From positions 20,910,517 to 20,974,516 of the forward strand of contig OX419755.1 in NCBI GenBank assembly GCA_948567375.1: a stretch of DNA of 64,000 nt, in the 5' to 3' direction. The notes below the pieces were generated by a model. It was given only the letters and a program-made list of their open reading frames with translations, ran no database searches and was not told the DNA's origin. Positions 7,664 through 51,913 of the stretch are shown here, piece by piece (within the stretch, counting starts at the first letter, position 1; the number at the start of each line of letters is the position of its first letter). This stretch comes from Lunularia cruciata. Lineage: Eukaryota > Streptophyta > Marchantiopsida > Lunulariales > Lunulariaceae. The translations under genes and the position numbers were made by a program.

Positions 7664-8380
7664 TGTAATATCAAGAGCTAGCCATATGATCTTGATGTGA
7701 AATTTGGTTTGGTAACATTTGGAATGATCTTATATATGATGAACAAAATAGATTATATAGAAGTATCACCAAGAGAGTACTTCTACTAATAGGGCAAAAA
7801 CCAAAATAGACTTGAAAACCTTAGAAACAATAGCTAGACATATGATTTGAAAGTGAGAATTTGTTTGGTAACACCTGGAAGGATGTTACACATGATGGAC
7901 TAATTAGATCAGAAAGAGGTTTCACCAAAAGGGGACTTCTACTAATAGAGTAGGAATCAAAATATGCTTGAAATCTTTGAAGGTAATTTTGGAGACCTAA
8001 ACAAATGAATTAGACCTCAAAAATGTGCAAAGTCCTTCCTCTCTTTCCCTCTCCCATTTGTCTCATTGAGAACTTTCCAATAGTACCTCACCCACATGAT
8101 TATGAGATTTCTATAAGAAGATTCCCTAAAGATTCTATGTGTTCAAAGCTTGTTTGACCAACCAGATAGTGTCAAGACCAACATGTCACCCATGCAAGTA
8201 AGTAATCCAAAGGTTGACCTTGCTGACATGTCATCTATCTATGTGCCTAATCCTATGGTGGAGCTTCCTTGAAAGAGATCCTCTTTGACTATATAATAAA
8301 GAGAAGGTCTCCTTTGGGGCATCGGATGATTGAGTGTGAAATCTATGTTTTCTCTTTTCTCTTGTCCTTGGAGTATTACA
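7664..8380 (+). mobile_element. 5' LTR of element E
   Basis: It starts TGTAATATCAAGAGC and ends GGAGTATTACA, with TG...CA ends, and is 717 bp. It matches 22954-23677 end to end and is followed one base later by the primer-binding site. A TATATAATAAAG segment near 8290 may be its TATA box. Confidence 0.9.
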
Positions 8381-8381
8381 A

Positions 8382-8393
8382 TGGTATTAGAGC
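8382..8393 (+). other. Primer-binding site of element E
   Basis: TGGTATTAGAGC, one transition from the initiator-Met tRNA site TGGTATCAGAGC, sits one base after the 5' LTR. Confidence 0.85.
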
Positions 8394-8982
8394 AAGTGTT
8401 TTAGTCCAAGAGAGTGGATCACCTCTCTTGGAAGAGCACAAACTACTCAAACCAAGTAATTTGAGGTGGAGAACATAGAGTAATTGCTAGACTTGGGAAG
8501 AGCTATAGAGAGCGGATGGGATGGATGCACCGGGAAGACAATTCCCGCACCTAACTTCCCATTCTTGAATCCATTCCACATCAAGGTTATATACAGCCAG
8601 TGTGAGCAAATGAGAGTAGTGTTAGTTTATCACTTTGGAGCAAAATTGATGGACAGAGTGATGAACTCACCAAACCTGGTGATTCTACCTGTGGTGGTAT
8701 ATGATAGAGAGTGGGATTTGACAATCTAGATTCTATTATGATCGTATGGATGTGAATGTCCCAAGTCCTCTCCCTTTCAACACTCAAGTAAAAATTTGTT
8801 ATGTAGTGAGACCAAAAGTGATATTTAGAGATTTTGCGATCAGAAATTGTGGTGAGGAGTATTATCAACGAGTGATAGCTTCTGAGGTCCCAATGGTAGT
8901 TCCAATAGTTTGTGTGTCTTTTAGAGTGATCATATTAACTCTCTAGTGAAGTAGACAATAGTGATTGAGTGTTGCAAGAACC

Positions 8983-10140
8983 ATGGATCCGCATTTGTAG
9001 GAGTTGGTGCAAGAAATGCAGGGGATGTTGAATGAATTCTGAGAGATTAAGATGACCATGGAGACATTATAGAGTCAAGTGCAGATCCTTAGGAATGATC
9101 AAGCAATGCAAGAAGAAGAGCCGTCTCAAAACCTAGTACCTTTAATTGAAGTACTTAGAGAGGCCTTTGTGCCTACAAACCCGATCAACTATGAAGCCAC
9201 ATTGCTACTCTAGATGAAGAAGACCTTCAAATATCAAGCCTTACAAGGGGTAGTGTATGATGGGAGTAGTGGAAAATTGGATCTTGAGAATGAATTGATA
9301 TTTCAGATTGTTCTTAACAAAGATCATTGAGCATGCTACAAGCGTGTTTGCATGTGAGTACTTGACCAATAAAGCCCTCACATGGTACGATGCTTGGGAA
9401 TGATCCATGTTGGTAGAGAGAAGGGAGATCACGTGGACAACAATGCAAGAAGGATTGTAGAAGAATTTCCAATTGGTGGATTTTGTGTATATGGCCCAAA
9501 TTTGACTATGGGGATTGAGACAAAAGAACAACTTACAAGAGTATGTGGAGGCATTTCTAGATCTACAAGTTGCAATAATTGACATGAGTCCAACAGAGGC
9601 TCTCAACAATTTCAAACAAGGGTTGAAGGAGTAGATTTGCCAAGAAGTCGTGGTGCAAAATCCTCACACGGTATTTGAAACCATTGCTTGTGCACAGAGA
9701 ATAGCAAGAGCATTGGGTGGAGATGAAGGAGTAGTTCCACCTCAACATTATTGGACAAAAATGCCACACATGGGTGGATCAGGACTGATGGAATTGAGAA
9801 ACCTTTGGCTTCAAGACAGAGGAGCACAATGCCTCAAGGAGAGCATGGAAAAGTAGAAGAACAAAGAGATGGAGTCCTACAAGGAGAAGGAACTCAAGGA
9901 TAACAATGCCATTGTTACAATTGTGGCCGTATTGTGCACATATCTACAAATTGTAATGCTCATCTTTGTAGAGGCTCTTGGCCTTCATATAGGCAATCTT
10001 TGAACAACATGGAAAGATGCACTAAAGAGGAAGAGATGGAAATCACTTTGGAAAACAAAGATTGCCAGTACATGTACCTTGCAAACTTATTGGCTCAATA
10101 AGGAAGCAAAGAAGCAAGAGAAGGAAGAAGACAAGCGTGC
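8983..10140 (+). pseudogene. Element E gag
   Basis: The ATG at 8983 opens a frame beginning MDPHL that soon meets an in-frame stop. Capsid-type text follows through 9900 in several frames. At 9913-9954 a complete CCHC zinc knuckle can be read (CYNCGRIVHISTNC, CX2CX4HX4C). The stops are mostly TAG and TGA where CAG, CGA or TGG would be expected, as in decayed methylated repeats. Confidence 0.75.
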
Positions 10141-10166
10141 AAAAGTCCCAAAAGGCAACCTCATAA

Positions 10167-10394
10167 TTGATTGTTGTGAATGGAGTCCTAAAAGGTAATC
10201 AAGTGGGAGTATTAATAAATTTAGGAGCAGTAGAGAATTTCTTCTCTTGCTCTATTGCAATAAGATTAGGATTAGATCTAGAGAGAGATGAGAGCAAAGA
10301 AATAGAGTTATCTAATGAGCAAATAGAGAAGATTATATCATTATCTAGATGGGTAATACTCTCTGTAAGAGAATATCAAGAAGCAATTGAGTGA
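10167..10394 (+). pseudogene. Element E retropepsin
   Basis: The frame holds VLINLGAVENFFS at the place where Ty3 proteases have the catalytic Asp-Ser/Thr-Gly triplet. Here it reads Asn-Leu-Gly, so the active-site Asp is gone. The segment lies between the gag knuckle and the RT start as expected. Confidence 0.7.
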
Positions 10395-10689
10395 AAGTGA
10401 TACAATTATCTTGTTATGATGCAATCTTAACCATGCCATGGATGGAGCACTACAACCCTAGATGGTAGATTGGAGGAAGAAAGTAGTGACAACCTACCCA
10501 TGGTTGATCATTGGGGTTAAAGAAAAATCACACAAACAAGAACTACCTCTTTATGTCATAAGGACGACAACTATCTATTAGACCGATAGATGTTTCATAG
10601 GTCTAATAAGAGAAGTCTAGAGTGCACCATAGGCACATAGTGCATAGGTAGCATCTTTGGGCAAGACAACTTGATGACAAATTCTTGAT

Positions 10690-11171
10690 AAATTGAAAGA
10701 TGTGGTGGATGAGTTTCAAGATGCCTTTCTTGATGAGCTACCCTCAGGATTACCACCAAAAAAGAGAGTAGATTATAAAATTGAGACACTCTTGGGGAAG
10801 ACACCTCCTTGTAAGGCCTCATATTGCTCATCACCTCATGAGTTGGAGGAATGTAAGACTCAAATTGAAGAGATGTTGCAGAAAGTGTTCATCCAACCCA
10901 ACATATCACCATATGGAGCTCTTGTCTTGTTTGCGAAGAAGAAAGACGATACAATGCGCATGTGCATTGACTATTGGTATCTCAATCATCAAATAGTGAA
11001 GAATAAATACCCCTTTCCTTGCATGGATGACATGCTTGATCAACTCCATGGAGCAAGATACTTCACCAAATTGGACTTGCGGAGTGGTTACAATCAAATC
11101 CAAATTATAGAGGAGGATGTGTACAAAACTGCCTTTTGAACCAAGTATGGTCACTTCGAGTAACTAGTGAT
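10690..11171 (+). pseudogene. Element E reverse transcriptase, N-terminal half
   Basis: One frame from 10693 to 11136 reads through RT blocks 1-3: a DELPSGLPP start, then [17 protein letters not shown] and [13 protein letters not shown], which carries the first palm Asp. It ends in a stop at 11137-11139 and is then interrupted by element F, whose left end is at 11172. The RT continues at 20580 with [10 protein letters not shown]. Confidence 0.85.
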
Positions 11172-11621
11172 TGTCACGCCATTTGTAGTGTCGTATCTAG
11201 ATGCTTGGACGTTGGAGTTCTAGTGAGAGTAGTTAGAGTTATTTCAGTACTTTCTTAGAGACTACTTTTTGACGGTCAAATTTTGTGTTTGGGGTATTGA
11301 CTTCACGGTGGGGCCCACCATTACTTTGCACCGTTTGCACCGTCGAGTGTGCCATCAGCGGGACCGTTTGGGTTTAGACCTAACTTGAGTCCAATAGGTA
11401 TGCTTTCCAAGTGCAGCTCCAGAGAGCACACTTCTCTGATGTTGAGCCTTTGAGTTCTTGGCTATGGTGGACAGTAGCCAGCGAGCGTCACCTGGATTCT
11501 CTATGCTTGAGTGGGTGTGGCTTGACTGTAATCAATGCCTAATTGTTGGCAGTTTATAGAGTGATAGATCAAGTACTAATTGAGTTGAGTTGAGTTGAGA
11601 GTGGTAAATGATCTGATTACA
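11172..11621 (+). repeat. Left LTR segment of element F (450 bp)
   Basis: It runs from TGTCACGCCATTTG to CTGATTACA and matches 20025-20473 almost base for base at both ends. The 105-bp block that follows the right copy (20475-20579) is missing here; after GATTACA the text goes straight into internal sequence (TCAAAGAAGTGAG). I see no canonical tRNA-primer site directly after it. Confidence 0.8.
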
Positions 11622-12420
11622 TCAAAGAAGTGAGTCAAGGGGAAATTGGGTGCAAGAACTACGAGTGTTGGTGGTATCTCCAAGCTTGATGGATCATGGT
11701 GTCTCAATTGCATAGTTTAGATTTCCCTAAGAGAGTGTGTGTGCAGAAGCAATGGCAAAATTTGGAGCCAAGGAAAAAGCAATTTTCAAGTGGTAGTTGT
11801 GATTTTGAGCTGAGGACCAATTTGTTTCGAGTTGAGCTCAAAAATTGAAATTGAAGATGGAGTTGGGAGCAGATCCTCACAAATTGAAGATTGGATGAAA
11901 CTGATTTTTCCAATTTAGCTTGAGTGAAGAGTTAGCTGAGGATTTAGTGGTCAGCCATTTTTAGGGATTTATGTCAGATTTTATGTTAGATTTTATGTTA
12001 GATTTTGTCAGATTTTGGCAAAAAGAACTTGAAACTGATCCTCGATGATCCTCGTAGCTCAAGAAGTAGATAGGTACTCAAATTATGTCAAATGCCAAAT
12101 GGTGGCAGAATCGGTCTTGTGTTGATTTACGAGATGGAGGGTTTTTGTTTAGCATTCTTGTGATTGGAACCCCTCCATTCTTTGCTTCCTGTTTGTGCAT
12201 CGTGTTTGTGTGAGGTGCCATGAATTTTGAGCGTTGGTGCTCTGGTGTGCTCTCGATAGTGAGGCTGGAGTGATGACCAATCAGACTATCTTTTTTTCTC
12301 TCCGGTGAAGTAGAAAGTGATGACCTACAAACCGTGAGAGTGTGTGTTATGATGGTAGGTTATAGGTTGCCTTTCCCCTAGTGTAGTTATCTCGGTTAGA
12401 GTTACATTAGTGGGTGGTGC
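11622..12420 (+). other. Untranslated leader of element F
   Basis: There is no domain and no usable frame between the left LTR segment and gag. TTGGTATTGGCACTTGG near 12426 resembles a primer-binding motif only weakly, and its distance from the LTR argues against that role. Confidence 0.45.
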
Positions 12421-12429
12421 TTAGTTGGT

Positions 12430-13950
12430 ATTGGCACTTGGTAGGGTACTTGCGGTTGCAACTTGGTGGTTCTGGTTTGCTATTGCGGTTACTTGGTCAC
12501 AACAAAGTTCTTTTGGGATTCCAAAGGAGATAGCCTTGCAGTACATAGTGGGTTTACTCGGAGTGACACTCGGTATCAGCCTGTATCTCAGGTCCCAGTG
12601 TGGGAGGAGATTGACTTTGAGTTGGAGTTCAACACAAGAGTTGATTCAATTAAGAGTGCACTTGGTGTGTCCGCACCGTTGTTGTGGGACATGGATAAGA
12701 TTTATGGGGCCTCCAAAGGCCCTAGGCGTTACTTTGGTACAGTGGGTACCATTGAGTTGGATGACTTCATCCAAGAGTTTGATAGTTGGTGTGATCTACA
12801 GCAGATGCGGAACCCGACCTTGTTCACACCCTTCATGACATGGAAGGAGTTGTTTCAGCATCTAGAAGGTCTTCCAATGGATGACTACCATGAGTTCAAG
12901 AGAGCTCACTTGGAGGAGATTGAGTTATGGAGATAGTATTGGTCTCCAAACTATGTCTCTATCACTTCAGGCTTGGTGGCCAGTAGTAGATCAGCTGTAC
13001 CTACGAGTTCTAGCTCGAGTTGTGTTGGTGGAGCTAGTGGAGGTGCACTAACTAGAGATAGTGTTACCACGAGTGGAGGTACCACTGCAGGAGGTGGTGT
13101 GGTACCAGGGTTTAACCCCATGGTGGAGTTCTTCCAGTGTTTGAGGCAAGGGAGTGTGGACTGACAAGCTGCAGAGCTTGCAGGAGTTCCAATGGAAGGT
13201 TGGAGAGAGCCTACATGAGGCATACACTTGCATGAGGCGGCTGATCAGTTTTACTTAAGGAGTTACTGAGGCCCAAGTAGTCTAGTTTTGGTATGGGATA
13301 CTGGACAAGGAGTTGCAACGTAGAGTTCATGATGCTACGTTGTTATAGGCTACTTTGCCTACTTTGGCAGTGGTCTTTGGTTTGGGTGAGCGTATTGAAC
13401 TCAACATGGCAGAGGAGAGAGTGGTGACATCTGGATTTGGTACGGAGACCTCATCCACGGTTGTGCCTTATAATGTGCAATAGAGTGCACCATGCCTAGT
13501 TGGTTTTTGAGGACAAGGTGGACAGGCCAGATCCTATAGAGCAAGTGGAGGGCCTAGTGGAGTTAGACCCTTACCTTCATTTACCGGTTAGTAGCAGCCA
13601 GTGAGTGGTGGTGTTGCTTGTTGGACTTGTGGTGGACCTCACCATTGGAGAGAGTGTACTCAAGGAAGTGGACTTGATACCTCGGATGCATCGCAGCCAG
13701 CACAGAGGAAGTATGAGCATTGCCACAGATTTGGTCACACTAGTGATCAATGTTTTGACCTACACCCGGAGTTACGGAGTGGTAGGACTGCTATGGAAAG
13801 TAGTAGAGGAGCTCCAATTCATGGAGGACGAGGTGGTAGAGGGTCTACACCTAGTACGTGTGCAGTACCTGCCCTTACTTTTGATACAACTATGGCTAAT
13901 CGGATTGAGCATTTGGAGCAGAGATTAGCTAGTATGGCTATTGCTTAGAG
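12430..13950 (+). pseudogene. Element F gag with two zinc knuckles
   Basis: A frame at 12463-12936 encodes a capsid-like acidic and aromatic segment (for example IYGASKGPRRYFG and FDSWCDLQQMRNP). The frame then shifts. At 13601-13948 there are two CCHC-type knuckles: CWTCGGPHHWREC (13619-13657) and YEHCHRFGHTSDQC (13712-13753). The second has Tyr where the first Cys belongs, consistent with a single TGT to TAT transition. Two knuckles in gag fit a Ty3 element with strong RNA binding. Confidence 0.75.
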
Positions 13951-14155
13951 GAGATCAGATTCAAGTGTTGAGGCTTCCACCTCATATGCTAGTGATAGAG
14001 ATGCTTTGGACTTCATGTGTGGAGCACCATAGGTGGATGCATCTGCAACAATGACTAGGAGTGCAATACATGCTCTAGAGCCTAGAGGAGCATCAATGGG
14101 GTTGGATCCATAGAGAGGAGAGGTTGGGAGATAGGTCAGACTTCCCCAATCTTTC

Positions 14156-15070
14156 ATGCTATCGGAGGCATTGCAGACAACATCCATGGTTCCTAGACGT
14201 CTCATTGTAGGTGTGGTAGGTGGTGATGGAGTACATGATGGACTACCTGCTAGTCAACCAATTGCTACTACACAAATTGAGTCTAGCATGATGTTGGGGG
14301 TGGCTCAGCTGATTAAGCGGCATCCTTTGTTTTTGGCTAGTGACATGTTTACATTGGGAGTTGACCCAACCCTAGTGTTCCGGTTGGCCGCCACACTTTG
14401 TGAGAGTAGAGATGATGCGGTTGCTACTACTAGAGCAGAGGTGGTTGGTAGTGGAGTTGACTTGGTTGAGGAGCATGGAATCCGTTCAGCGACCAGTGGT
14501 TTGTGGCAAACAGTAGCGGCTAGACTGGAGGAGTTGCCTGCCAGCTAGACCGGCCTTTGAGAGAGCATGGTTTACACCCGGTGTTGTCCTATTGGATAAC
14601 CAGAGGAGGATTTTCCATTTGGTGGGACCTTTAGGGAAGGTCTATACACCACATAGAGTCTTGTTAGAATTTTGTGCGCAACCCCTTATGTTGGGGAAGG
14701 AGGCAGTGGTCGGTCTGGAATTACGGAAGACCGATGTGGAGAGGTGTCCATTTCAAATCCAGACATCTTTAGGTGGTGGTTTGACACATTACATCACACA
14801 TGGGGAGCTTGTTGTCCAGGTTCAGCCTGGTCATCCGACCGATAGCTTGGTGGTGAGAGCTCAAGCTATTACAACAATAGCTGAGTCATATGATGTGCTA
14901 GTCGGAGAGCAATGTTATACTCCATGGGTTTCAACATTGACTATTGGGAGGAAACAACCTCCTATAGACTTGGTTAGCAGTCTGGTGAGGGACGGGTATG
15001 TCACCTACCAATACGCTTCAGTAGTGACAGTCTTGGCTCACTACAGTTTGGGACCATGGCAGCATCAATT
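14156..15070 (+). pseudogene. Element F protease region
   Basis: The frame at 14592-15071 contains LLEFCAQPLMLGKEAV at the place where aspartic proteases have Asp-Ser/Thr-Gly-Ala followed by a hydrophobic turn. Here the triplet reads Glu-Phe-Cys, so the catalytic Asp is lost. Downstream, AESYDVLVGEQCY fits the second half of a retropepsin fold. A frameshift near 14920 moves the reading to frame 2, and another near 15150 moves it to the frame used by the methyltransferase. The assignment rests on position and the triplet. Confidence 0.6.
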
Positions 15071-15156
15071 TTAGCTTTCAATGGTGCAGTTACTTGGCCT
15101 GGTGATTTGTTGGAGGAGAACATCCATGTAGAGGATACTCTAGTACCAAATGGAGT

Positions 15157-16647
15157 ATGAGTGTGATTGTTCCATCCACCTTGGATGTTCCATTGTGGAG
15201 TTCTGAGGAGGCATTGCAACAACATGCAAATCAATTGGTGCAACATGCTTGGAGTGGAGCCTTCATACCATCAGGAGATGAGTGTGAGGATGAGCCTCTA
15301 GAGGCAATTGCTTTGACACCTCTTGATACCACACTCATTGCTTGGTAATATCCAATAGAGAGGATATGTCTATTGAAGTTGTTCGGTGGGATTAGCACCG
15401 GACTAGCTGCGGTGTTACAAGCGGGTATATGAGTACAGAGGTACTTGTATGTAGAGAGAGATGAGACTACTAGGCGAGTCTCTCTGCATCATGTAGCACG
15501 CTTGGCCTATCGGTATCCAGAGTTATTACCAATGTCAACAGTTAGAGGTTACCAAAAGGCCCTACCAGTAGACATTTCCTTACTGGAAGCACATGACCTA
15601 GAAAGACATGGGGCTATTCACTTGGTGATTTTAGGATAGCCATGTCATGGACATACACATGCAAGCTATGTTTTGGGTCTTCAAGATCCTTGTTTTGGTA
15701 CATTTTGGGAGATATTATGGATATTACGACGTCTCTAGGTTCATCAATCCGTTTCTCCAGCTAACCTTTTGGAAAACATGCATTTGATAGGTGATTCTTG
15801 CACTAGAGTGGTGGTGAGTACACATCAGGTCCATTCTTGGATGGGACCTGTTGTATTGTTAGATGCAGCTAGAGTGGGATCACGGGCTCATCGTCTTTGT
15901 CTTTGGTGGACGAACCTCTTACCCAGAGAGGTTTTACAATGTGCTTATGATGGGATTCAATGACTTGAGCACATCCTTGTTGATGACATCTTGGATGTTG
16001 GGCGTTAGTCTCAGACAGTGGTAGTGGCTGATAGGTCACCTATGGCAGTGGTGAACCTAGTTGGACAGCCTAGAGCCGCATTTCCCACACTCATGAGTTT
16101 CCCAGGCTCTCATGCATTTTGAGAGGGAGGACCTGGACTTGTTTGGGACTCACAATTAAATTAGTTGGTGGAGCCTAATGCTGATGAGAGAGAGCGGGTG
16201 ATGGGTTTTTGCTTTGGTATTACCGCTGTTCCAGCAATGTCAGAAGCATCCAAGCGTCAAGTGTTAGGTCAAGCTATGGACTTGAACTGTTTGACATGGA
16301 TTGTGAGCCTTGGCTTGGCAAGGCAGAGTAGGATGCATTTGATAGGCATCACTACTTGGACACTTGTGAGCCTTGTGCCTATCAAGACGATTCAGGCACA
16401 TGCTAGGGGCAATGGACCGAGTGGACATGGTATTCTTAGGACACATCCAATAGCTACTAGGGAGAGTGGTCTACTTGGAGTCCATCAAGGTGAGCATGGG
16501 CTACTTGGATTACACCTTTGGTCCACATGGGATGCAGCTAGAGGACATGTGGAACTTGCAACCAGAGTGGGGGGAGTTTTTCACACAGAGGTTGGGACTT
16601 CTAGTGGTCAAGAGCATGATATTATTGCTCCCAAGGGCCTAGTGTAG
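15157..16647 (+). pseudogene. C5-cytosine DNA methyltransferase domain inside element F
   Basis: One reading frame runs through the whole span without a frameshift, broken only by point stops (15346, 15430, 15637, 15736, 15961 and others). C5-methyltransferase motifs are in order: motif I FGGISTGLAA (15382-15411, cofactor loop); an acidic block YVERDETTRR; motif IV PCHGHTHAS (15640-15666) with the catalytic Cys present but preceded by a TAG stop and with His where Gln is usual; motif VI LENMHLIGD (Glu-Asn at 15772-15777); motif VIII HRLCLWWTNLLP; motif IX NADERERVMGFCFG; motif X RQVLGQAMDLN. The target-recognition part between VIII and IX is short. The domain sits in the polyprotein between protease and RT. 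As a family, such enzymes transfer methyl groups to cytosine C5. This copy is dead as it stands. Confidence 0.88.
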
Positions 16648-16729
16648 CAGCCAGTCAGTACGTCTTCCACTCCTACTACAGTTACAGAGGATACTTGGGA
16701 GCCAAATCTTGGACCCTAGCTTACTAAAG

Positions 16730-17450
16730 AGGAAAGATGGAGGGTTTGGAGGTTCTTGAGGAGTCACACGAGTTGTTTTGCCTTCAGTATGAGGGATTTG
16801 GGTGCTTTGAAGGGACTCGGTATAGCTTGAGCTGACTAGCGATACATCAGTTTTCCAACGTCCTTATCAATATAGTGATATGGAGAGGACATTGATTTAG
16901 AGCCGGAGTAGTGACCTTTTTGAGGTGGTTTGGTAGAGATTTCTCATAAAGAGTATGCATCAACGACAATGATGCCAACCAAGAAGGATATGCATGGCAA
17001 CTATACAGATAGGTGGATGTGTGGAGATTACCGTCCTATCAACCAACAAACCAAGGCTGATTGGTATGCCATGCCTACACCAAAGGAGATTTTTGATGCG
17101 ATTGGGCATGCAAAGATCTTCAATACTTTGGATCTTTGAGCGGGATATCATCAATTGCCGATCAGGGAGGAGGATAAGTCCAAGACAGCGTTTTTGGCTA
17201 TTGATCCTCATGACAAGGATGTGTTATATCAGTGGAGGTTCTTACCATTTGGGTTAAAGAACACTCCTACTGAGATCCAAAGGGTCATGGATAGGATCCT
17301 AGCTGGATTGGATTTTGCTCGGTGTTATATTGATGACATTTTGGTCTATGGCACTATTGTGGAGGAGCATGAGAGATAGTTGTTGGAGGTGTTTGAGAGG
17401 TTGAGATCTCATGGACTCAAATTGCATCTTGGGAAGTGTAGGTTCTTCCA
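16730..17450 (+). pseudogene. Element F reverse transcriptase
   Basis: The RT start can be read near 16735, with MPTKKDMHGNYTDRWMCGDY from 16972. FNTLDL carries the first palm Asp, and CYIDDILVYG holds the YIDD box (17326-17337) intact. A thumb block with LGHIIYPGG follows. Interruptions are point stops such as the TGA after LDL (17137-17139). The order downstream of the methyltransferase is that expected if the latter was inserted between protease and RT. Confidence 0.85.
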
Positions 17451-17559
17451 CGAGCAGGTTGAGTATTTGGGTCACATTATCTACCCCGGAGGCCTTGGTG
17501 TTCAGCAGACCAAACTAGAGGCTATTGCACGTATTCCTTAGCATTCGGATGTGAGCAGA

Positions 17560-18115
17560 GTGCAAGCATTCCTTAGGTTAGCAAACTTCTATCGCCACTA
17601 TGTTAGAGGATTTAGTGCCATTGCCAAGGCCTTGATGAAGCTAACCAAGCTTACACATGAGTGGTGTTGGGGAGATGAGTAGGAGAGAGCTTTTGTAGAG
17701 CTCAAGGAGAGGTTGACATCTGCTCCTATTTTGAGAAGACCGATTAGAGGACAACCATTTCAGGTTCATACTGATTGGAGTATGTTGGGGCTTGGAGCGG
17801 TGCTCACCCAACATGATGATGAGGAGAAGGAGTTTGTGGTGGCTTATGCTAGTCGCTCCAACAATTCAGCAAAGGCAAAGTATAGTTCATATGAGGGAGA
17901 GTGCTTGGCAACAATTTGGACAGTAGCACATTTCTGATGTTACTTATTAGGTAACCCCTTCACTCTCATCATTGATCATCAGCCACTGAAGTGGTTGATG
18001 GAGTCCAACAAGTCAGGGAAGCTTGCACAATGGGCTCTGATTTTATAGTAGTATGATTTCATGGTTGTTCACAGACCTAGAGTGGTGAACCGTGATGCAA
18101 ATGGATTGAGTAGAA
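17560..18115 (+). pseudogene. Element F RNase H
   Basis: FQVHTDWSMLGLGAVL gives the first catalytic Asp, SSYEGECLATIW the Glu and LIIDHQPLKWLM the second Asp of a Ty3 RNase H. The frame is interrupted by a few stops (near 17935 and 18046). The segment joins RT directly, as in all Ty3 elements. Confidence 0.8.
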
Positions 18116-18332
18116 ACCCATGTCCCATCCAGCAAGATCAGACCGGAGCAAGTTGGCATGGTGAGATAGATGAGGAGATGGTGCCAGGTTGGCATGCATT
18201 GGCCTTTTTGTGTATTTTTTCAGAGGCTTTGGTGGTATCTCTCTCAACGCATATAGGAGGAGTTATTGAGTTCACAAATCCAAAGAGTGAAGATATTGGT
18301 AAGTTCAGCGATACATTCATGATGATGTCTTA

Positions 18333-19310
18333 TTGATGGACTATCTTTGCACTAGTGTTGTGGGTGGTACAGTTGTGACCAAGGGGAGAGACAGTGTTCT
18401 TCAACAAGCCAAATGGTTCAGATTGGAGGGCAAACACCTTTTGCGTGTATGGGAGGATGGTAGAGTGCAAGTAGTACCACTTCCATCTCAGAGACCACAG
18501 TTGGTCCGTCATGCTCATGAGGAGCTAGGACATTTTGGAGTAAAGCGTACATATAGCTTACTCCATAGTCATCATTGGTGGCGTGGTATGAAGACCGAGA
18601 TATAGCAATTTGTTGCCAGATGTGTGGTTTGTGACCAAGTTAGAGCATCATTCAATGCTCCTACGCCACAGTTACACCCATTACCTATCATGGGATTGGG
18701 TTACCATTGGAGTTTGGACTTTGCTGGACCTTTACCGCTGACTGTGAGACATCATTGGTATGTTTTGGTGATGGTGGAGCACTTCTCCAAGTGGATTGAG
18801 TTGGTGGCACTTCCTAACAAGTCTAGTGAAGAGACAGCTTACTTGTTCTTAGATAGAGTTCTTACTCACTTTGGTGCACCAGCTAAGGTTTTGATTGATC
18901 AAGGTGCAGAGTTCTTGGGAGAGTTTCAGGTCTTGTGTGACAAGGCTTTGATTGATCATTGTACTACATCCCGAGATCACCCTGAGGCAGATGGCTTAGT
19001 AGAGAGAGTGGTTCAGATGATGAAGAGAGGATTGCAAAAGTATGGTTTGTAGAGAGGCCACTTGGGAGATTGGGATCTCCAATTACCTTGGTTGGCCATG
19101 GGCTATTGGTTCAGCCGGCAAGCCTCCTTAGCATCCTTGTCTCCGTACTTTCTACTCTATGGACGAGATCTAGATTTACCTGTAGCTATTCATCAAGATG
19201 CTACTGTAGTTTTGGACTTGGATGACCCCGATGTATGGATGAGTGCATGTTTTCAACGGGCAGAGATCTTTCGGAGAGTGATGCGGATGGCCTTTGAGAA
19301 CTTGTAGATT
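18333..19310 (+). pseudogene. Element F integrase
   Basis: An HHCC zinc domain can be read (HEELGHFGVKRTYSLLHSHH, then CVVCDQ). The catalytic core keeps all three acidic residues: Asp in WSLDFAGPL (18717-18719), Asp in LIDQGAEF, and Glu in EADGLVERV about 35 residues later. The core frame 18624-19049 is open for 142 codons. Integrase inserts the cDNA. The survival of D, D and E contrasts with element E's integrase. Confidence 0.85.
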
Positions 19311-19319
19311 TCTCAGTAT

Positions 19320-19600
19320 AAAGATACTTTATGCTATGCTATCATTCAAGGAGGAGATTATAGACCCTTGATCCGTCGATTTCATCCAAGAGACTATGTA
19401 TATCTACAGCAGATAGCACCAATGACACTTGATGTTTCTACAGGCCACACTATCTTAAGAGTGCATTTTTCCCTCTGGAGTCCTTGTGTTGGAAGGACAT
19501 GATGGTGTTTTTTAGAAGGATCATGTGCACAATTGTGCACCATGCCACCTCTCAAACATTGATGGTACTATGGATCCAAGCTTGGCACTTGTACGTGCAG
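19320..19600 (+). pseudogene. Element F integrase C-terminal segment
   Basis: The frame reads FHPRDYVYLQQIAPMTLDVS, a small beta-rich C-terminal module of Ty3 integrases, followed by a frameshift near 19470 and text leading straight into the PHD finger. No chromodomain was seen here, so the PHD finger takes the position usually held by one. Confidence 0.6.
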
Positions 19601-19608
19601 GCTTGAGG

Positions 19609-19743
19609 TGTATGTTATGTGGCTCTTATGGTGGAGCTACTACTATGTTAGTGTGTGATAGTTGTTTGAGAGGATGGCATATGGCATGTATGACTCCTCC
19701 CCTCACGGTGGTTCCTCAAGGGCAGTGGTTATGTCCTAGATGT
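19609..19743 (+). pseudogene. PHD finger at the polyprotein C-terminus of element F
   Basis: All eight zinc ligands are present in C4HC3 spacing: CMLC, 11 residues, CDSC, 4 residues, His, 2 residues, Cys, 14 residues, CPRC. The diagnostic GWH, the PPL turn and the QGQWLCPRC end are there. The frame ends with a TGA at 19747-19749. PHD fingers commonly read the histone H3 tail. Fusion to integrase suggests a role in target choice, by analogy with integrase chromodomains. It shares the frame of the methyltransferase segment but not that of the integrase core. Confidence 0.88.
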
Positions 19744-19917
19744 AATTGACCTATAGCTAGTTCATTCTTTATATGGTATAGATTGCAGACATACAACTAA
19801 CGATAGGGCTCCATAGCACCCGGCCTCCTAATCTTTGCCCATTATAGGGTACACCATATACTTGGAGTAGATGGCTATCAAGAGTTAGAGGGACCTAATC
19901 GTCAGCTAGGGAGAGGT

Positions 19918-20022
19918 TGTGGCACTTTAGAGTCTATGTATGACTTATGTGTGAGTTGTGTTTCTATAGTGTATGATGTTGACAGTGATGTATGTTGTGT
20001 AGCGATGTATATACACACGACA
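19918..20022 (+). repeat. 105-bp LTR-type block, internal copy, element F
   Basis: It starts TGTGGCACTTTAG and ends CACGACA, and is repeated at the same length at 20475-20579. A purine tract AGGGAGAGG (19908-19916) lies directly before it, as expected just upstream of a 3' LTR. Two bases (AC) separate it from TGTCACGCC at 20025. Confidence 0.85.
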
Positions 20023-20024
20023 AC

Positions 20025-20579
20025 TGTCACGCCATTTGTAGTGTCGCATCTAGATGCTTGGACATTGGAGTTCTAGTGATAGTAGTTAGAATTATTTCAA
20101 CAGTTTCTCAGAGACTACTTTCCGACGGTCAGATTTTGTGTTTGGGGTACTGACTTCACGGTGGGGCCCACCGTCACTTTGCACCATTTGCACCATCGAG
20201 TGTGCCATCAGCAAGACCGTTAGGGTTCAAACCTAGCTCGAGTCCAGGGGGTATACTTTTGAAGTGCAACTCCAGAGAGCTCACTTCTCTGATGTTGAGC
20301 CTTCGAGTTCCTGGCTATGGTGGATAAAGGCCGGTGAGCATCACTTGGATTCTCTATGCTTCAGTGGGCGTGGCTTGACTGTAATCAGTGCCCAATTGTT
20401 TGTAGTTTATAGAGTGACAGATCAAATACTGATCTGAGTTGAGTTGAGTTGAGAGTGGTAAACGATCTGATTATTGTGGCACTTTAGAATCTATGTATGA
20501 CTTATGTGTGAGTTGTGCTTCTATAGTGTATGATGTTGACAGCAATGTATGTTGTGTAGCAATGTACATACGCACGACA
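20025..20579 (+). repeat. Right LTR region of element F: 450-bp block plus terminal 105-bp block
   Basis: 20025-20473 matches the left segment 11172-11621. 20475-20579 repeats 19918-20022. The region ends GACA next to the TGAT target duplication. If the LTR is TGTCACG...CACGACA it is 555 bp and the left copy has lost its end. If it is TGTGGC...GATTACA, adjacent to the purine tract, the whole insertion is permuted. Confidence 0.8.
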
Positions 20580-21560
20580 TGATGCCTTTTGGCCTCACCA
20601 ATGCACCTGCCACTTCCATGGATCTAATGAATGACATATTTTGTCCATACTTGGATAAGTCTATTATTGTCTTTGTGGATGACATCTTAGTATACAGTAG
20701 CACAATGACGGAACACAAACAACATCTACAAGAAGTCCTCCAAATTCTAAGATAGAATCAATTGTACGCCAAAATCTCAAAGTGCAAGTTTGGCAAGTCT
20801 GAAGTAGACTACTTGGGGCATAGAGTAAGTATAGATGACATTCAAGTATTGACAAATAAAATAGAGGTCATTAAAAAATAGAGTGCCTTGGAAGATCAAA
20901 CTCAACTCAAGAGCTTCTTGGGATTGATGGGATTTTATTGTTGATTTATCAAACACTTCTCTAAGGTTGCATACCCTTTAATGGCACTACTTGGCAAGGA
21001 AAAGAAGTGGATATGGGGAATGACACAAGAGTTGGCTTTTCAAGAATTAAAAGTAGCCTTGCTACATGCACCAATCTTGAAGTGGTATGACCCAATATGT
21101 CTAATCAAGTTGGCTATAGATGCATCAAGTGTAGCAATAGGAGCAATCCTACAACAAGAGTGGCATGACGGATGGCATCTAATTGTATATTTCTCTCAAA
21201 AGTTGTTACCAATAGAGTGCAACTATCACATCACAGAACGAGAAGAGCTGGCCATTGTCCTTACAACCAAGCATTGGAAGCACTATTGGGCAAGAAGGAA
21301 TTTGTAGTAGAGACACACCACAAACCTCTAGTCTACATGGAGACACAAAAAGATCTATCTTGTTGCCAAATTAGGTGGGCAGAGTGGCGACAATGTTTCA
21401 ACATGACAATCACCTACATGGAAAGTAAGAAGCAACTTGCCGATGCACTCACCCACATATCAATGGCAAATAGTTTAGTGGTAGAGGTTAAGATTAGCCT
21501 TAAATTTTGGCCAGAGATTCTGGTTGCTACAAAAACTGATCCATAGATTGTAGGAGCACA
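20580..21560 (+). pseudogene. Element E reverse transcriptase C-terminal half and RNase H
   Basis: After the F insertion the E frame resumes with [20 protein letters not shown] (about 20679-20700) is the catalytic box, and the thumb block KFGKSEVDYLGH follows. RNase H can be read in 20981-21304 (LAIDASSVAIGAIL, then ITEREELAIV) and after a frameshift in 21270-21540 (THHKPLVYM). Stops near 20753 and 20881 disable it. Confidence 0.85.
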
Positions 21561-21619
21561 ATCATCCAAAGGCGTCACCAACACCCAAGGACTCACCTTT
21601 TGGGATGGTAGATTATGGA

Positions 21620-22720
21620 TCTCAAATGTCCCAAAATTATGCAGTACTATTCTAGAGCGGAATGTCATGATTTGGCCATTGCAGGTCATGTCGGAGTGGA
21701 TAAGACCTTGGAAGCAGTCCAACGCCATTACTATTGGCCCAAGATGAACAATGATGTTATGGACTATGTAAATTGTTGCCTACTCTATCAAAAAAACAAA
21801 GCTTTTTATCAAGCTCCTATAGTGCTCCTTCAACCTCTCTCCACTCCTACACAACGTTAGGAATAGGTGAGTATAGATCTTGTTTGTGAATTACCCAAGA
21901 CCACCTTAGGGTTTGACTCCATTATGGTCTTTGTGGACAGGCTCAGCAAAATGATTCATGTACGCCATACCACCAAGGATATGACCACTCCACAACTAGC
22001 TCAATTACTTAGATGCGGTCTTCTCTCACCATGGCTTGTCTCGAGTACTCATCACCAATAGAGGCACTCAATTCACCAATTTGTTTTAGTGAACACTTTT
22101 TGGTTTCTTCAAAACCAAGTTGGCAATGTCCATAGCTTACCACCTACAGAAAGATGGACAAACAAAGTGGGCTAATCACCCTATTGAAGACATGTTGCAT
22201 GGCTTCACCTTAGAAGAGCAAGAGAGGTGGGACACCCTACTCCACTTTGTGGAATTCACTTACAACAATTTGGTGAATTCATCCACCCATGTCACTCTTC
22301 CTCATGTGTATGGTGAGCATCCTTTCACACCTTCTAGCTTGATGAAGATCCATCCGGTGGCTACCAAGATGCAGTCAACACATTTGTTTCTCAAATCCAA
22401 CAAGGTGTGGAGAGTGCCAAGCATAGATTGCAGATTGCGCAAAATCAACAAAAGCAGTATGATGATGCACACTATAGGCACATGGAGTTAAATGTTGGGG
22501 ATCAGGTGTGGTTTTCTACAACCAACCTCACATTATCTGGCCCTTATAAGCTTAGACCTCATTTTATTGGGCTTTTTTCTATTCTTTGTCGAGTTGGCAT
22601 TGTGGCCTATCACCTCAAGCTACCACCACACATGAAGATCTATCCAATGTTCCATTTTTCCCTACTATGCAAATATGCTCCCCAATTGGACCACTATCAT
22701 TCCACACGAGACCTTTGACC
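21620..22720 (+). pseudogene. Element E integrase
   Basis: The HHCC domain (GHVGVDKTLEAVQRHYYW, CCLLYQ) and core are readable. The first core Asp is kept in SIDLVCELPK. The second acidic site reads Asn in LITNRGTQF, and the third reads Lys in DGQTKWANH, so the enzyme is dead. The C-terminal block with VGDQVWFST follows at about 22485-22515. Confidence 0.8.
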
Positions 22721-22734
22721 TTTTTTGACACTCA

Positions 22735-22915
22735 TTGATGGCACGGAGGAATATGAAGTAGAGCGTATCCTCCAAAAATGCATATATGGTACTTGCCATC
22801 CATGAGTGGACTATCTGGTACAATGGAAAGGTTACCACCTCTATGAGGTAACCTAGGAGCCCACTACCAATTTGACACATGCATTAGTGTTGGTACAGGT
22901 GTTTGAGCAATAGCT
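22735..22915 (+). pseudogene. Chromodomain of element E
   Basis: The text reads TEEYEVERIL, then DYLVQWKGYHLYEVT, then EPTTNLTHA, the three blocks of an integrase-linked chromodomain, with stop codons where Trp would be expected. Such domains direct chromovirus integration toward marked chromatin. This classes E as a chromovirus. Confidence 0.8.
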
Positions 22916-22937
22916 GCACAACAAAGATGTTGCGTCT

Positions 22938-23677
22938 TAAAAGTAGAGAGGTTTGTAATACCAAGAGCTAGCCATATGATCTCAATGTGAAATTTGGTTT
23001 GGTAACATATAAAATGATCTTATACATGATGGAAAAAATTAATTAGATAGAATTATCACCAAAAGAGTACTTCTACTAATAGGGCAAAAACCAAAATAAA
23101 CTTGAAAACCTTAGAACTAATAGCTAGACATATGATTTAAAGGTGAGAATTGGTTTGGTAACACCTAGAAGAATGTTACACATGATGGAATTATTAGATC
23201 AAAAATAAGTATCACCAAAAGGGGACTTCTACTAATGGAGTAGGAACTAAAATATGCTTCAAGTCTTTGAAGGCAATTTTGGAGACCTAAAAAAATGGAA
23301 TAGGCCTAAAAAATGTGCAGATCCCCCCCCCCCCCTCCCCCACTACTCTCTTTTGTCTTGTCAAGAGCTTTCCAACAATACCTCACCCACATGATTCTCA
23401 GATTCTTATAGGAAGATTCCCTAAAATATTCCCTTTGGTCAAAGCTTATTTGACCAACCAGATAGGATCAAGAACGACATGTCACCCATGCAAGTAAGTA
23501 ATCCAATGGTGGAGCTTTTTGACATGTCACCTATCTATATGCCTAATCCTATGGTGGAGCTTCCTTGAAGGAGATCCTCTTTGTCTATATAATAAAGAGA
23601 AGGTGCTCCTTTGGGGCATTGGATGATTGAGTGTGAAATCTATGTTTTATCTCTTCTCTTGTCCTTGGAGTATTACA
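22938..23677 (+). mobile_element. Purine tract and 3' LTR of element E
   Basis: The polypurine run AAAAGTAGAGAGG (22939-22951) is followed closely by the LTR, which starts at 22954 with TGTAATACC and ends at 23677 with GGAGTATTACA. The LTR is 724 bp. It contains a C homopolymer run near 23323-23339 that is absent from the 5' copy, and otherwise the two LTRs match along their length. Confidence 0.9.
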
Positions 23678-23799
23678 CAAGGGAATCAAAAAACAAAAGT
23701 ACTTGCTCTCCTCTATCTCAACAACTTATTTATGTTTTTTGAATTTCTTGATATGATCAATATGCACTTGTTTTTTATTCCAATTATTTGTTAAGGTAG

Positions 23800-24554
23800 T
23801 GTAATACTCCGATGACAAGAGAACTCTTTCAAGAGATGCACAAGAGAGAAAACATAGATTTCACACTCAATCCTCCAATGCCCCAAAGGAGCACCTTCTC
23901 TTCATTATATAGCAAAAGAGGATCTCCTCCAAGGAAGCTCCACCATAGGATTAGATACATTGATAGGTGACTTGTCAACAAGCTCCACCCTTAGATTACT
24001 TGCTTGGATGGTGACATGTCGGTCTTGGTTCCATCTAGTTGGTCAAACAGATTTTGATCGGAGGGAATCTTTTAGGGGATCTTCCTATATGAATCTTAGA
24101 ATCATGTGGACGAGGTACCATTGGAAAGCTCTTAGTGAGACAACCCAAGGAGGAGGAAGTCTAGCCTTTACTCCAATGGGGGAAAATCTACACATTTTTT
24201 AGGTCTAATTCATTTGTTTAGGCCTCTGAAATTGCCTCCAAAGTTTTTAGGCCTATTTTGGCATTTTCTCTATTAGTGGAAGTGTTCTTTTGGTGATACA
24301 TCTATTTGATTTACATTCTCCATCATGTGTAACATCCTTCTAGACATCACCACCCCAAGTTTTACCTCTAGATCATATGCATACCTATTGATTCTAAAGT
24401 TTCCAAGCATGTTTTGGTTTCTAGCCTATTAGTAAAAGTACTCTTTTGGTGATAACTCTATCTAATCTACTTAGTCCATCATGTATAATATCCTTTCAGA
24501 TGTTACCAAACCAAATTTTATCTCTAGATCATCTATCTAGCTATTGGTATTACA
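23800..24554 (-). mobile_element. Solo LTR of the E family
   Basis: The inverted E-family LTR runs from TGTAATACTCC to GGTATTACA and is 755 bp, with no internal region attached. The flanks GGTAG (23795-23799) and AGTAG (24555-24559) differ by one transition, a likely 5-bp target duplication. It was probably formed by recombination between the two LTRs of a full element. Confidence 0.85.
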
Positions 24555-25812
24555 AGTAGGTGGGATGTACAATCCTATACATATGTCATTCCATTGCTTA
24601 CACAAAGCCTTAGGCTGCCTAATTGATTCAAAATCACTCCATTTTTTATCAACAAGTGTACATTGAGCACATTTTCAACCAAGCTGCTCATTAGATTTAG
24701 ATAGGTCTCCATCCCTCCTTGATGGATGTGGTCCCATTATCTTGAATTGCTTGAACAGGATAACGTTTTCCTATATTGATGTTTTCATCCATCATGAGTT
24801 TAGGTACAAGGAGTAAAACCTATGCTTGTGTCATAAAAAATCAATCTTATTCATCATGAAAGAAATCTCCCTCATTTCCATAGAAATCCCGACTTTCTTC
24901 AAACTCATTGCAAAAGGTATGTTAAATCTTTGTGGGAGATTCCTGCTAGGAAGATGTGTACACCTTTAAAAACAATCCAAGCCATCCTTTTGCATTGACT
25001 CAAAGTGCTCTTCTAGCTTTGTGCTCCCTTTTATGGTGTTGCAAATTTATTTTTTTGTGTACTTTTGGCATAAATTTTTTAATATTATATAGTTTGTAAG
25101 TGATTCTTTGCCTTATTAGGAAGAATGTCTTTGTATTGGGTTTGTCTTTGGCTTTGGATTAGAATTAATATCCAAGGAGGAGAAAGATATCAATGAATTG
25201 CAATTGGCACCTTGCCAAGAAGATGTCATTTGTGAGGAACCAATTTTAGAGAAACTCAATGGCTTCTCTTTTGTACATACTATTTTGGTGGAAGTATGAA
25301 GGACAAATGATGCAAACCTTTGTAGAGCTCTACTTTTGGCACCATGTCTTCATATTGTGCTATCTTTTATAATCACTAGGCCCAAAGTAGTTTCTTTAGG
25401 TGGACCATTTTTTTATATACTTCACATTTGTTGATGACTTACCTTCATATTATATTGCCCTTATATTGGATGGGTTGTCTTGAAGCCAAAAATTACTTGT
25501 CCTTAGTGAAGATGATGCATGCAAATGTGTCTACCTTTTGGGTTAAGTATGAAGGAAAAATGGATGAAGTAGATGGACATAGATCCATGCATAAACTAGA
25601 TTATACTAAGGCAAATAACCTTATGATTGAGAATGCTAAGTTGAAATGGGAAATAAGCTAAAACTCTATAGTTATATAGTCCTATACATTCAACTCCAAG
25701 GATTGCAATGTGAGTTAAACAATCTTTATATCTTGAGCATGGAGGAATAGAAGGCTCAAGAGGAAGAGCTTCATAAGTGAGTGAAGAGGAGACAAAGTCA
25801 AGCATACCATTG
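24555..25812. other. Unassigned AT-rich stretch
   Basis: Sequence between two solo LTRs. A frame at 25428-25658 is open for 77 codons but matches no family I recognise. It is probably decayed retroelement interior. Confidence 0.4.
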
Positions 25813-50899: not shown

Positions 50900-51913
50900 T
50901 CATAAAAAGTCTACTGTTCCTGTGATCCTTATTGGATTTGGGAATACAATCCGTTGTGCTTGGCCTTTATCAACAAGGGCTGGTAGTGCATTTGCGTCTT
51001 TTGGTTTCATCCCTTGACCGGTCCAGACCTGTATCACATGGAGAGCTTGGTTTAGATTGTATCAGAATCTCAAGAAAAATAAAAAATTCTCGAGAATATA
51101 TTGAGTATATGAATATGGAAGTCGTTCGCTAGAACACAGTTCTCTACCCACTGTATGTAAGTGGATATAGCGAGGCGGAGTTGGACTATTACCGTCACAT
51201 GAGGCCAAGAGTTCAAAGACTTAATTGTCTGCTCTTCACCAGCGTTTAACTGTACTTCTAAGGCGCACAACTTGTCTGTATAAACTAGTGCTGTGAACTG
51301 GACGGGAGCTGGAGATGCACGCAGTGATCCATAGGCTGATACAGCTGCCACTCCGTGAGCATGTTTGTGTGCAAGCGTGACGTGAGCCTTGCCTAAGCTC
51401 TCTTTCCAACTCTTCCCAGCAAGGTACATTTGCGCTTGAGGGTTTTGTGCCGCTACCTGGCAGGAAATACGGTCCCCTTTGATCAGTAGCCAGTCGTTAA
51501 CAGACCCTACTTGCACATTGAATGATTCCGAATTCACAAAAGTCTAAGATTCTTTAACGTTCAAGTGATCAAAATACTGAAACTTGTCGGTAGCAGCACA
51601 GCAGGTTGGGGTCAACTGAAGGCTACACGAGACCATCTAGCAGTAAAATCCAGAACTTCACGGGTGCTAACATTTCAAGTACACTCTGTCACACCCGATT
51701 ATCCAAATATAAATCCACATGGAGTAAAGGTCAGCTTCAACATACCAATTCCAACGCCTTGGCCACTTGATCTTGAGGCAACTTGACAGCAGCGAAGGTA
51801 AAGGTGCGGAAAGAACGTTCTTCAGAGGCCCTGGGAACATGCATATCAAAACCTGCACTGTTGATAGTTTTCAGCTGATCGATGACTGATTTTACTGCTT
51901 CTTGAAAAGGAAC
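50900..51913 (-). other. RNL: RNL cyclic phosphodiesterase domain
   Basis: Three exons encode a 2H-type phosphodiesterase with both His-x-Thr motifs: HVT in GKAHVTLAHK (51376-51384) and HVT in SWPHVT (51193-51201), the second directly followed across an intron by VWTGQG. The domain opens the 2',3'-cyclic phosphate to a 2'-phosphate before sealing. The C-terminus reads DANALPALVDKGQAQRIVF and ends ITGTVDFL with TGA at 50900-50902. Confidence 0.92.

Follow-up and report, generated by a model that had tools for sequence, protein, structure and literature searches.

The window analysed here, a stretch of 64,000 nucleotides of Lunularia cruciata DNA (contig OX419755.1), contains a Ty3 element, which we call element F, at positions 11172-20579, with the 4-bp target duplication TGAT at either edge. 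Its gene order is Gag with zinc knuckles, protease, a C5-cytosine methyltransferase (MTase), a UAG stop codon, reverse transcriptase (RT), RNase H, DDE integrase and a PHD finger. An initial annotation of the window had proposed a Ty3 element with its own C5-MTase between protease and RT, and this is borne out by the one-frame identity between the MTase segment of F and that of L095, a copy from the same genome in which the frame is open (Table 1). We regard this architecture and the DNMT3 identity of the MTase as practically certain. The domain order Gag-protease-RT-RNase H-DDE integrase is the one expected of Metaviridae, and short target-site duplications of the kind made by integrase are found in the F family, whereas F lacks the two complete long terminal repeats (LTRs) of that family.

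The C5-MTase motifs follow one another in the frame of 15157 up to the UAG at 16645-16647. The segments that we take to be the numbered motifs are LFGGISTGL (motif I, 15379-15405), PCHGHT (motif IV, 15640-15657; PCQGH in relatives), LLENM (motif VI; mostly ENVP in relatives), DAARVGSRAHRLCLWWTNL (motif VIII, 15862-15918) and VLGQAMDLNCLTW (motif X, 16261-16299), with VEPNADERERVMGF between VIII and X (16168-16209). The ordered series previously read in one frame of the protease-RT interval is thereby recovered for I, IV, VI, VIII and X, all within 15379-16299. As to the span 15157..16647 that had been given as the MTase, its frame and its end on the UAG stand, but the catalytic domain proper covers only about 15370-16310, the remainder being linker and C-terminal tail, and the copy is dead. 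Eight stops lie upstream of 16645 (15346 TAA, 15430 TGA, 15637 TAG, 15736 TAG, 15961 TGA, 16006 TAG, 16120 TGA and 16162 TAG), and the frame of F changes near 13149, 14540, 14910-14924, 15151-15157, 18303-18333 and 19464, so that this copy is unable to make the enzyme.

Run on the broken segment of the window, Pfam-A gave no C5-MTase and only one unrelated match under threshold; therefore, the profile search proposed earlier would be negative on the window span itself. The open frame of L095, in contrast, matches PF00145 at 29.8 bits (cut-off 22), and a protein-database search with the window segment gave 74 relatives at E <= 0.001 (7994 candidates scored, 5.8 billion proteins), the best of them (E 5e-154) being 54% identical to the segment over 98% of its length. 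Many of the 74 carry PF00145, one together with an aspartic protease domain. By these comparisons, a chance resemblance to C5-MTases is excluded. An alignment of 16 diverse relatives shows little or no variation in three places: P, C and Q in motif IV, E and N in motif VI, and A-H-R-x-R in motif VIII. The catalytic PC and EN are present in it and the motif order is normal, not rearranged as in DRM. DNMT3 is the closest solved C5-MTase both by profile (alignment A2) and by fold (model of relative P0003); DNMT1 was not among the PDB matches listed (60 of 154), an absence that is no test of a DNMT1/MET1 origin. The enzyme of F is thus of DNMT3 type, related to animal DNMT3, by sequence profile and predicted fold, and would be expected to methylate DNA.

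The neighbouring domains were assigned in a similar way. PF13650 (aspartic protease) is found in relatives P0028 and P0095 and falls below cut-off in P0002 and L056, so that the protease of F is called from PF13650 in relatives together with alignment; the motif reads VLLDSGAQPLMLGK in open relatives and VLLEFCAQPLMLGK in the window copy. The PHD finger is matched by PF00628 at E 6.3e-10 in the window copy and 6.5e-11 in L095.

The F family and its relatives

Own-genome searches, which cover 566 Mb, point to a family that is large and was active until recently. Exact matches to the 27-base motif IV site number 909 (448 + 461), against 0 for a reversed control. With relative P0002 as query, 16,939 first-look candidates were found; scoring of the best 62 showed nearly full coverage of the query in every one and no internal stop in 26. 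Of five copies (L093-L097) read over about 10 kb, four keep the Gag-protease-MTase frame open for 1428 codons and none has an unbroken Pol frame; a 1037-codon open frame around RT, the full length of Pol, is present in a number of the 97 RT-ranked rows. The 30 MTase-ranked loci treated below, minus three of other length and one that is not colinear, leave 26 colinear copies with 97.4-99.3% identity, hence the recent activity. Over 325 pairs of these copies, the pN/pS ratio is 0.35 for the MTase, 0.26 for RT, 0.21 for the protease and 0.54-0.56 for two linkers, values that include neutral decay and come from copies ranked by MTase-side similarity. Premature stops in the MTase-side matches of the 62 copies are TAG or TGA only, with one TAA among the 97 RT matches; this bias fits C-to-T change of CAG and CGA and G-to-A change of TGG under CG/CHG methylation.

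The MTase could have been a chance insertion in one copy. A second set, for which 97 of 51,080 first-look candidates were scored on RT and the junction was examined in rows 2-21, speaks otherwise: the MTase tail followed by TAG CAG CCA is present in 20/20 copies, 14 of them new and 6 shared with the 62 MTase-ranked copies. Motif X is kept in 19 of the 20, two with I for M; the exception is L132, where the upstream part stops just short of it (DLNCLTW).

Among the hosts of the protein relatives are the liverworts Calypogeia fissa, Marchantia polymorpha and Riccia sorocarpa as well as Sphagnum mosses; a distant relative used as query brought in two green algae, Monoraphidium neglectum and Chlamydomonas eustigma, besides many metagenome proteins. 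Klebsormidium is not among the host-named matches of three protein searches, in which most matches have no host name. The 55 MTase loci found in viral contigs are distant (23-53% identity, short segments), and none reaches the identity or coverage of the F family; two further scans gave none. Among genome contigs, one locus of six, L056, is a real member, the other five being distant (26-45%, short segments). L056 lies in a cyanobacterial bin and another family member, P0030, in one of Candidatus Obscuribacterales; both are in all likelihood contigs of eukaryotes that ended up in bacterial bins.

Among the 27 rows of the RT tree, the 19 MTase-bearing elements group together (SH-aLRT 99), and within this group the seven with the MTase after RNase H are one clade (98) and the 12 with the MTase before RT another (88); the PHD finger is present in both. 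The comparison set consists of eight proteins without an MTase match, six of them a near-identical Tanacetum cluster and a seventh also from Tanacetum, and MTase-free close relatives were possibly missed because relatives were found through the MTase. The MTase tree, with 64 of 73 rows left after thinning, again places the after-RNase-H type in one clade (9 rows, 100), in which P0065 and P0136 are counted since their MTase directly precedes the integrase, and groups L095 with Marchantia, Calypogeia and relatives (100). Both trees are quick ones with SH-aLRT support only, several long branches and a sampling that leaves out Klebsormidium. They fit one capture, joint descent and one relocation between the positions before RT and after RNase H. 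The related capture suggested in the initial annotation is better read as an old event, common to green algae and bryophytes, than as a recent one.

Some relatives have features of their own. P0065, from a metagenome, has the MTase followed by the integrase zinc-binding domain without RT, consistent with the after-RNase-H arrangement. P0127, P0130 (in its C-terminal third) and P0136, in which the MTase lies after RNase H or just before the integrase, have towards the C-terminus a stretch that resembles a second class I methyltransferase (in P0130 DPWCGTG ... MSPLF, by eye); Pfam assigned no family to this stretch. P0130 also has a G-patch domain at residues 1184-1223 (PF01585, E 2.7e-7) between MTase and integrase.

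The stop codon between methyltransferase and Pol

In the window copy, the MTase frame ends in GTG UAG CAG CCA and Pol resumes in the same frame. This is the form of a type I leaky stop, in which CARYYA stands behind the UAG and the frame downstream stays open. The CAR YYA 3' of UAG has been reported to be essential for tobamovirus readthrough (PMC2754532). The signal is well kept in the genome: for 30 of the 62 MTase-ranked loci, 26 have TAG CAG CCA and one TAG CAG CTA, so that 27/30 fit CARYYA. One of the others has TAG CAG CCT, L088 stops earlier, and L071 was missed by the motif used but is copy L125 of the second set, which has TAG CAG CCA. Pol follows in frame right behind the UAG in 28/30 loci with the stop in place, in the 20/20 others and in L056, although some copies carry later decay stops in Pol.

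L056 is a contig of 9.3 kb whose ends overlap over 127 bases; its best reading is that of a whole element in collapsed form. It has TAG CAA TCA at the same place with Pol in frame, and it is identical to L095 at 34% over Gag-protease-MTase, 53% over the MTase and 62-70% over Pol; the hexamers CAGCCA of F and CAATCA of L056 differ only at the two degenerate positions of CARYYA. Downstream of its stop, L056 has a stable RNA structure (z -3.36). A special structure was considered as part of the signal in F as well and was rejected, with z of 1.24 in the window and -0.58 in L095. Many other Gag-protease-MTase proteins end 90-150 residues past motif X, before any RT; these ends are known from the proteins and some may be contig ends. 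UAG CARYYA also occurs by chance, with four occurrences on the plus strand of the window including the F site.

We think that readthrough of this UAG is very probable. Since UAG-CAR-YYA is kept in 27/30 and 20/20 copies and in L056, the MTase is probably made at the level of Gag. The tobamovirus replicase (PMC2754532) and gammaretrovirus gag-pol (PMC4178896) are likewise single frames split by a UAG that is read through, in the former with the hexamer CAR YYA; F differs from both in being a plant Ty3 element with an extra enzyme upstream of the stop.

Terminal repeats, insertion site and neighbourhood

The terminal repeats of F are split, with A (449 bp) at the left and B (106 bp), two bases, A and B at the right, that is, A-coding-B-A-B; the 5' end thus has A only and the 3' end B-A-B. 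In 12 further own-genome copies, A starts alike. No B stands behind A1 in 7/7 of those whose stretch extends beyond A1, five judged by search of the next 1.3 kb and two by the first 3 to 7 bases; in the other five, the stretch ends inside A1 or at its edge. The right end is B-A-B in 11 of the 12, the C7 copy being the one whose right end was not found. Complete 4-bp duplications flank the window copy and 9/11 further copies, with three of four bases in L094 and the C2 copy. These duplications and the DDE integrase rule out that F is a tyrosine-recombinase element of the DIRS/Ngaro kind, for all the likeness of its repeats.

The internal join is B-GC-A in the further copies, reading GACAGCTGTC, and B-AC-A in the window copy. 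The B1-GC-A2 join of copies L093-L097 (window repeats 19917-20579) contains a perfect 10-base palindrome that resembles the two ends of F joined. No TGG stands directly behind A1 in F.

Table 1. Features of element F in the window
Feature	Position	Strand	Evidence
Left target-site duplication TGAT	11168..11171	+	Sequence
A1, left terminal repeat, without B behind	11172..11619	+	Starts TGTCACGCC; 88.4% identity to 20025-20473
Gag with CCHC zinc knuckles and region up to protease	12427..14542	+	tblastn, L095 ORF1 (open reading frame 1) residues 7-723, 81-83% identity
Retroviral-type aspartic protease region, internal frame changes	14538..15157	+	VLLEFCAQPLMLGK; tblastn, ORF1 residues 721-927
DNMT3-type C5-MTase, linker and C-terminal tail, 8 premature stops	15151..16644	+	84.5% one-frame identity to L095 ORF1 residues 931-1428; 74 relatives
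UAG CAG CCA, putative leaky stop of plant-virus type at the Gag-protease-MTase / Pol boundary, same frame	16645..16653	+	Kept in own-genome copies and L056
RT and RNase H	16687..18563	+	PF00078, PF17919, PF17917
DDE integrase	18567..19463	+	PF17921, PF00665
End of integrase ORF with PHD finger (finger about 19609-19743)	19465..19746	+	PF00628
B1, internal copy of right terminal repeat, then 2 bases and A2	19917..20022	+	93.4% identity to 20474-20579
A2, second A copy	20025..20473	+	Repeat comparison
B2, right terminal repeat	20474..20579	+	Ends CGCACGACA; repeat comparison
Right target-site duplication TGAT	20580..20583	+	Sequence

F is inserted in the RT gene of another, older Ty3 element (ctagTGATgcc, reading LVMPFG). 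The halves of this host element E lie at 7664-11171 and 20580-23677 and are flanked by its LTRs (7664-8380 and 22954-23677, 87%); an inverted copy of the LTR at 24554-23842 makes 22953-24555 a palindrome-like stretch. Further away, a host-gene exon at 51073-51537 (-) has a weak match to tRNA ligase phosphodiesterase (PF08302, E 1e-4, just under cut-off).

Proposed self-marking of the element and its alternatives

Chromoviruses, which are plant Ty3 elements, have a chromatin-reading chromodomain at the integrase C-terminus; in F, a PHD finger replaces it, and MTase, split repeats and leaky stop are added. REM1 of Chlamydomonas is a green algal Ty3 element with a PHD finger in a separate antisense ORF, and is not known to carry an MTase. 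The closest known parallels were described by de Mendoza et al. in 2018, who found Dnmt3-type MTases under purifying selection in DIRS elements of Symbiodinium and Gypsy elements of Klebsormidium, the SymbioDIRS enzymes methylating CG in yeast (PMC5890265). Like F, KnitGypsy-Dnmt3 of Klebsormidium nitens combines Ty3/Gypsy domains and an unrearranged Dnmt3-type MTase in the polyprotein, under purifying selection, with DIRS-style A-coding-B-A-B repeats; unlike F, it lives in a streptophyte alga and its MTase is described within the Pol ORF (PMC5890265). The available text of that account mentions no leaky stop, and "PHD" does not occur in its main text. As F shares the Ty3 pol, the Dnmt3 MTase in the polyprotein and the A-coding-B-A-B repeats of this group, kinship with KnitGypsy-Dnmt3 may be argued, from architecture and not from sequences. 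SymbioDIRS-Dnmt3 and SymbioLINE-Dnmt of Symbiodinium also have an MTase inside a retrotransposon, the former a Dnmt3-type enzyme with A-B-A-B repeats, but their machinery is of the tyrosine recombinase or LINE kind, whereas F has a DDE integrase and 4-bp duplications (PMC5890265).

A 2019 paper gives such MTase elements as absent from land plants "such as tracheophytes"; the available part of PMC9033089 reports no MTase-bearing retrotransposons, and among titles and abstracts of mostly open literature we found none on bryophyte Ty3 elements with an MTase or on a leaky UAG in such elements. MTase-bearing Ty3 elements are thus already known in green algae and appear to be new in bryophytes. Within the literature searched, the bryophyte scale, the leaky stop on the Gag side, the neighbouring PHD finger and the signs of one old capture also appear to be new.

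The following course of events would account for these features. Most ribosomes would halt at the UAG and release Gag-protease-MTase, while a few would read through and make the Pol fusion. The MTase would then enter the particle in Gag amounts, be freed by the protease and methylate the double-stranded cDNA of F ahead of integration. The PHD finger of the integrase, a domain of the type that recognises histone H3 unmethylated at lysine 4, would in turn aim the marked cDNA at silent chromatin, where a new copy would arrive marked like its surroundings, with less harm to the host and less exposure to its surveillance. We consider an F family with Gag-level MTase, readthrough Pol, self-marked cDNA and PHD targeting to be, as a whole, the best explanation and a fairly probable one; that the element's own cDNA is the main substrate of the MTase has, in our view, an even chance.

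The architecture, the catalytic motifs, the DNMT3 fold and profile match and the conservation of the MTase and of UAG-CAR-YYA come directly from sequence. Several points weigh against the explanation as a whole. The F family is known from its sequences, and its conservation is overestimated, because own-genome copies were taken in order of similarity, which for the first set meant similarity on the MTase side itself. The leaky stop is seen in the DNA of two lineages only, F and L056, of which the latter is no very distant witness, and RNA structure 3' of the stop is ordinary in F. In P0118, P0119 and P0124, MTase and Pol share a single unbroken frame, and in one clade the MTase stands between RNase H and integrase; therefore, supply at Gag level is not needed by all relatives. 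The catalytic domain of KnitGypsy-Dnmt3 gave no methylation in yeast, a result that its authors call inconclusive (PMC5890265). Moreover, the decay of the window copy, measured at sites where five young copies agree and to which it is 92.1% identical, shows C to T at 93/336 CG (27.7%), 143/645 CHG (22.2%) and 112/2441 CHH (4.6%) sites, the mark of CG plus CHG methylation, which the host alone could supply.

The same decay bears on the idea that the MTase acts in trans on host chromatin, at other elements or genes, and shifts the silencing landscape to the element's gain. The family is abundant, with 909 motif IV sites, its PHD finger could bring Pol to chromatin, and a similar idea has been raised for Symbiodinium (PMC5890265); but the decay is of the ordinary plant kind without an all-CG pattern, and the inclusion of the MTase in the Gag-protease frame suggests that it belongs to the particle, so that we find action in trans distinctly unlikely. 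It is very unlikely, in our opinion, that the MTase is kept for a role other than DNA methylation, such as binding nucleic acid or S-adenosylmethionine in the particle, or methylates RNA. Its pN/pS is indeed a little above that of RT and protease, KnitGypsy-Dnmt3 was silent in yeast and RNA methylation has been suggested for SymbioLINE-Dnmt (PMC5890265), yet the catalytic residues of motifs IV, VI and VIII are nearly invariant across the 16 relatives.

The UAG might also simply end the Gag-protease-MTase ORF, with Pol made by reinitiation or from a spliced message. Marchantia gene models P0075, P0077 and P0078 go from MTase to RT without all or part of the tail, as if spliced, and readthrough itself is deduced from the sequence; the in-frame Pol right behind the UAG in nearly every copy, and hexamers in F and L056 that differ only where CARYYA permits, make this account highly improbable to us. 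A further question is whether bryophyte, green algal and Klebsormidium MTases entered separate Ty3 lineages. The two places of the MTase in the polyprotein would suit several independent captures, as would trees without a Klebsormidium sequence, and separate captures have been argued for Klebsormidium and Symbiodinium (PMC5890265). Agreement of the RT and MTase trees on a single MTase-bearing RT group and a single after-RNase-H clade, and the repeat arrangement common to KnitGypsy-Dnmt3 and F, argue for common descent, and we regard independent captures as unlikely. That one DNMT3 capture, older than the split between green algae and land plants, gave rise to a Ty3 lineage with a methylation writer and a histone reader, in whose bryophyte line the MTase came to lie Gag-side of a leaky UAG, many per particle, for routine self-marking of cDNA, is a broader proposal that we put forward tentatively, at slightly less than an even chance.

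DNA methylation is a host weapon against retrotransposons, and a successful element with its own de novo-type MTase is, for that reason, a paradox. Such elements are carried by liverworts and mosses, one land-plant genome having the 909 exact motif IV sites. The Marchantia methylome paper counts five DNA methyltransferases, namely MET, two CMT and two DRM (PMC5784723), and because Marchantia polymorpha carries relatives of the F enzyme outside these five, self-methylation by a retrotransposon would be testable in a model plant. If the proposal is true, self-marking by methylation of cDNA would be a routine step in the life cycle of a lasting Ty3 lineage.
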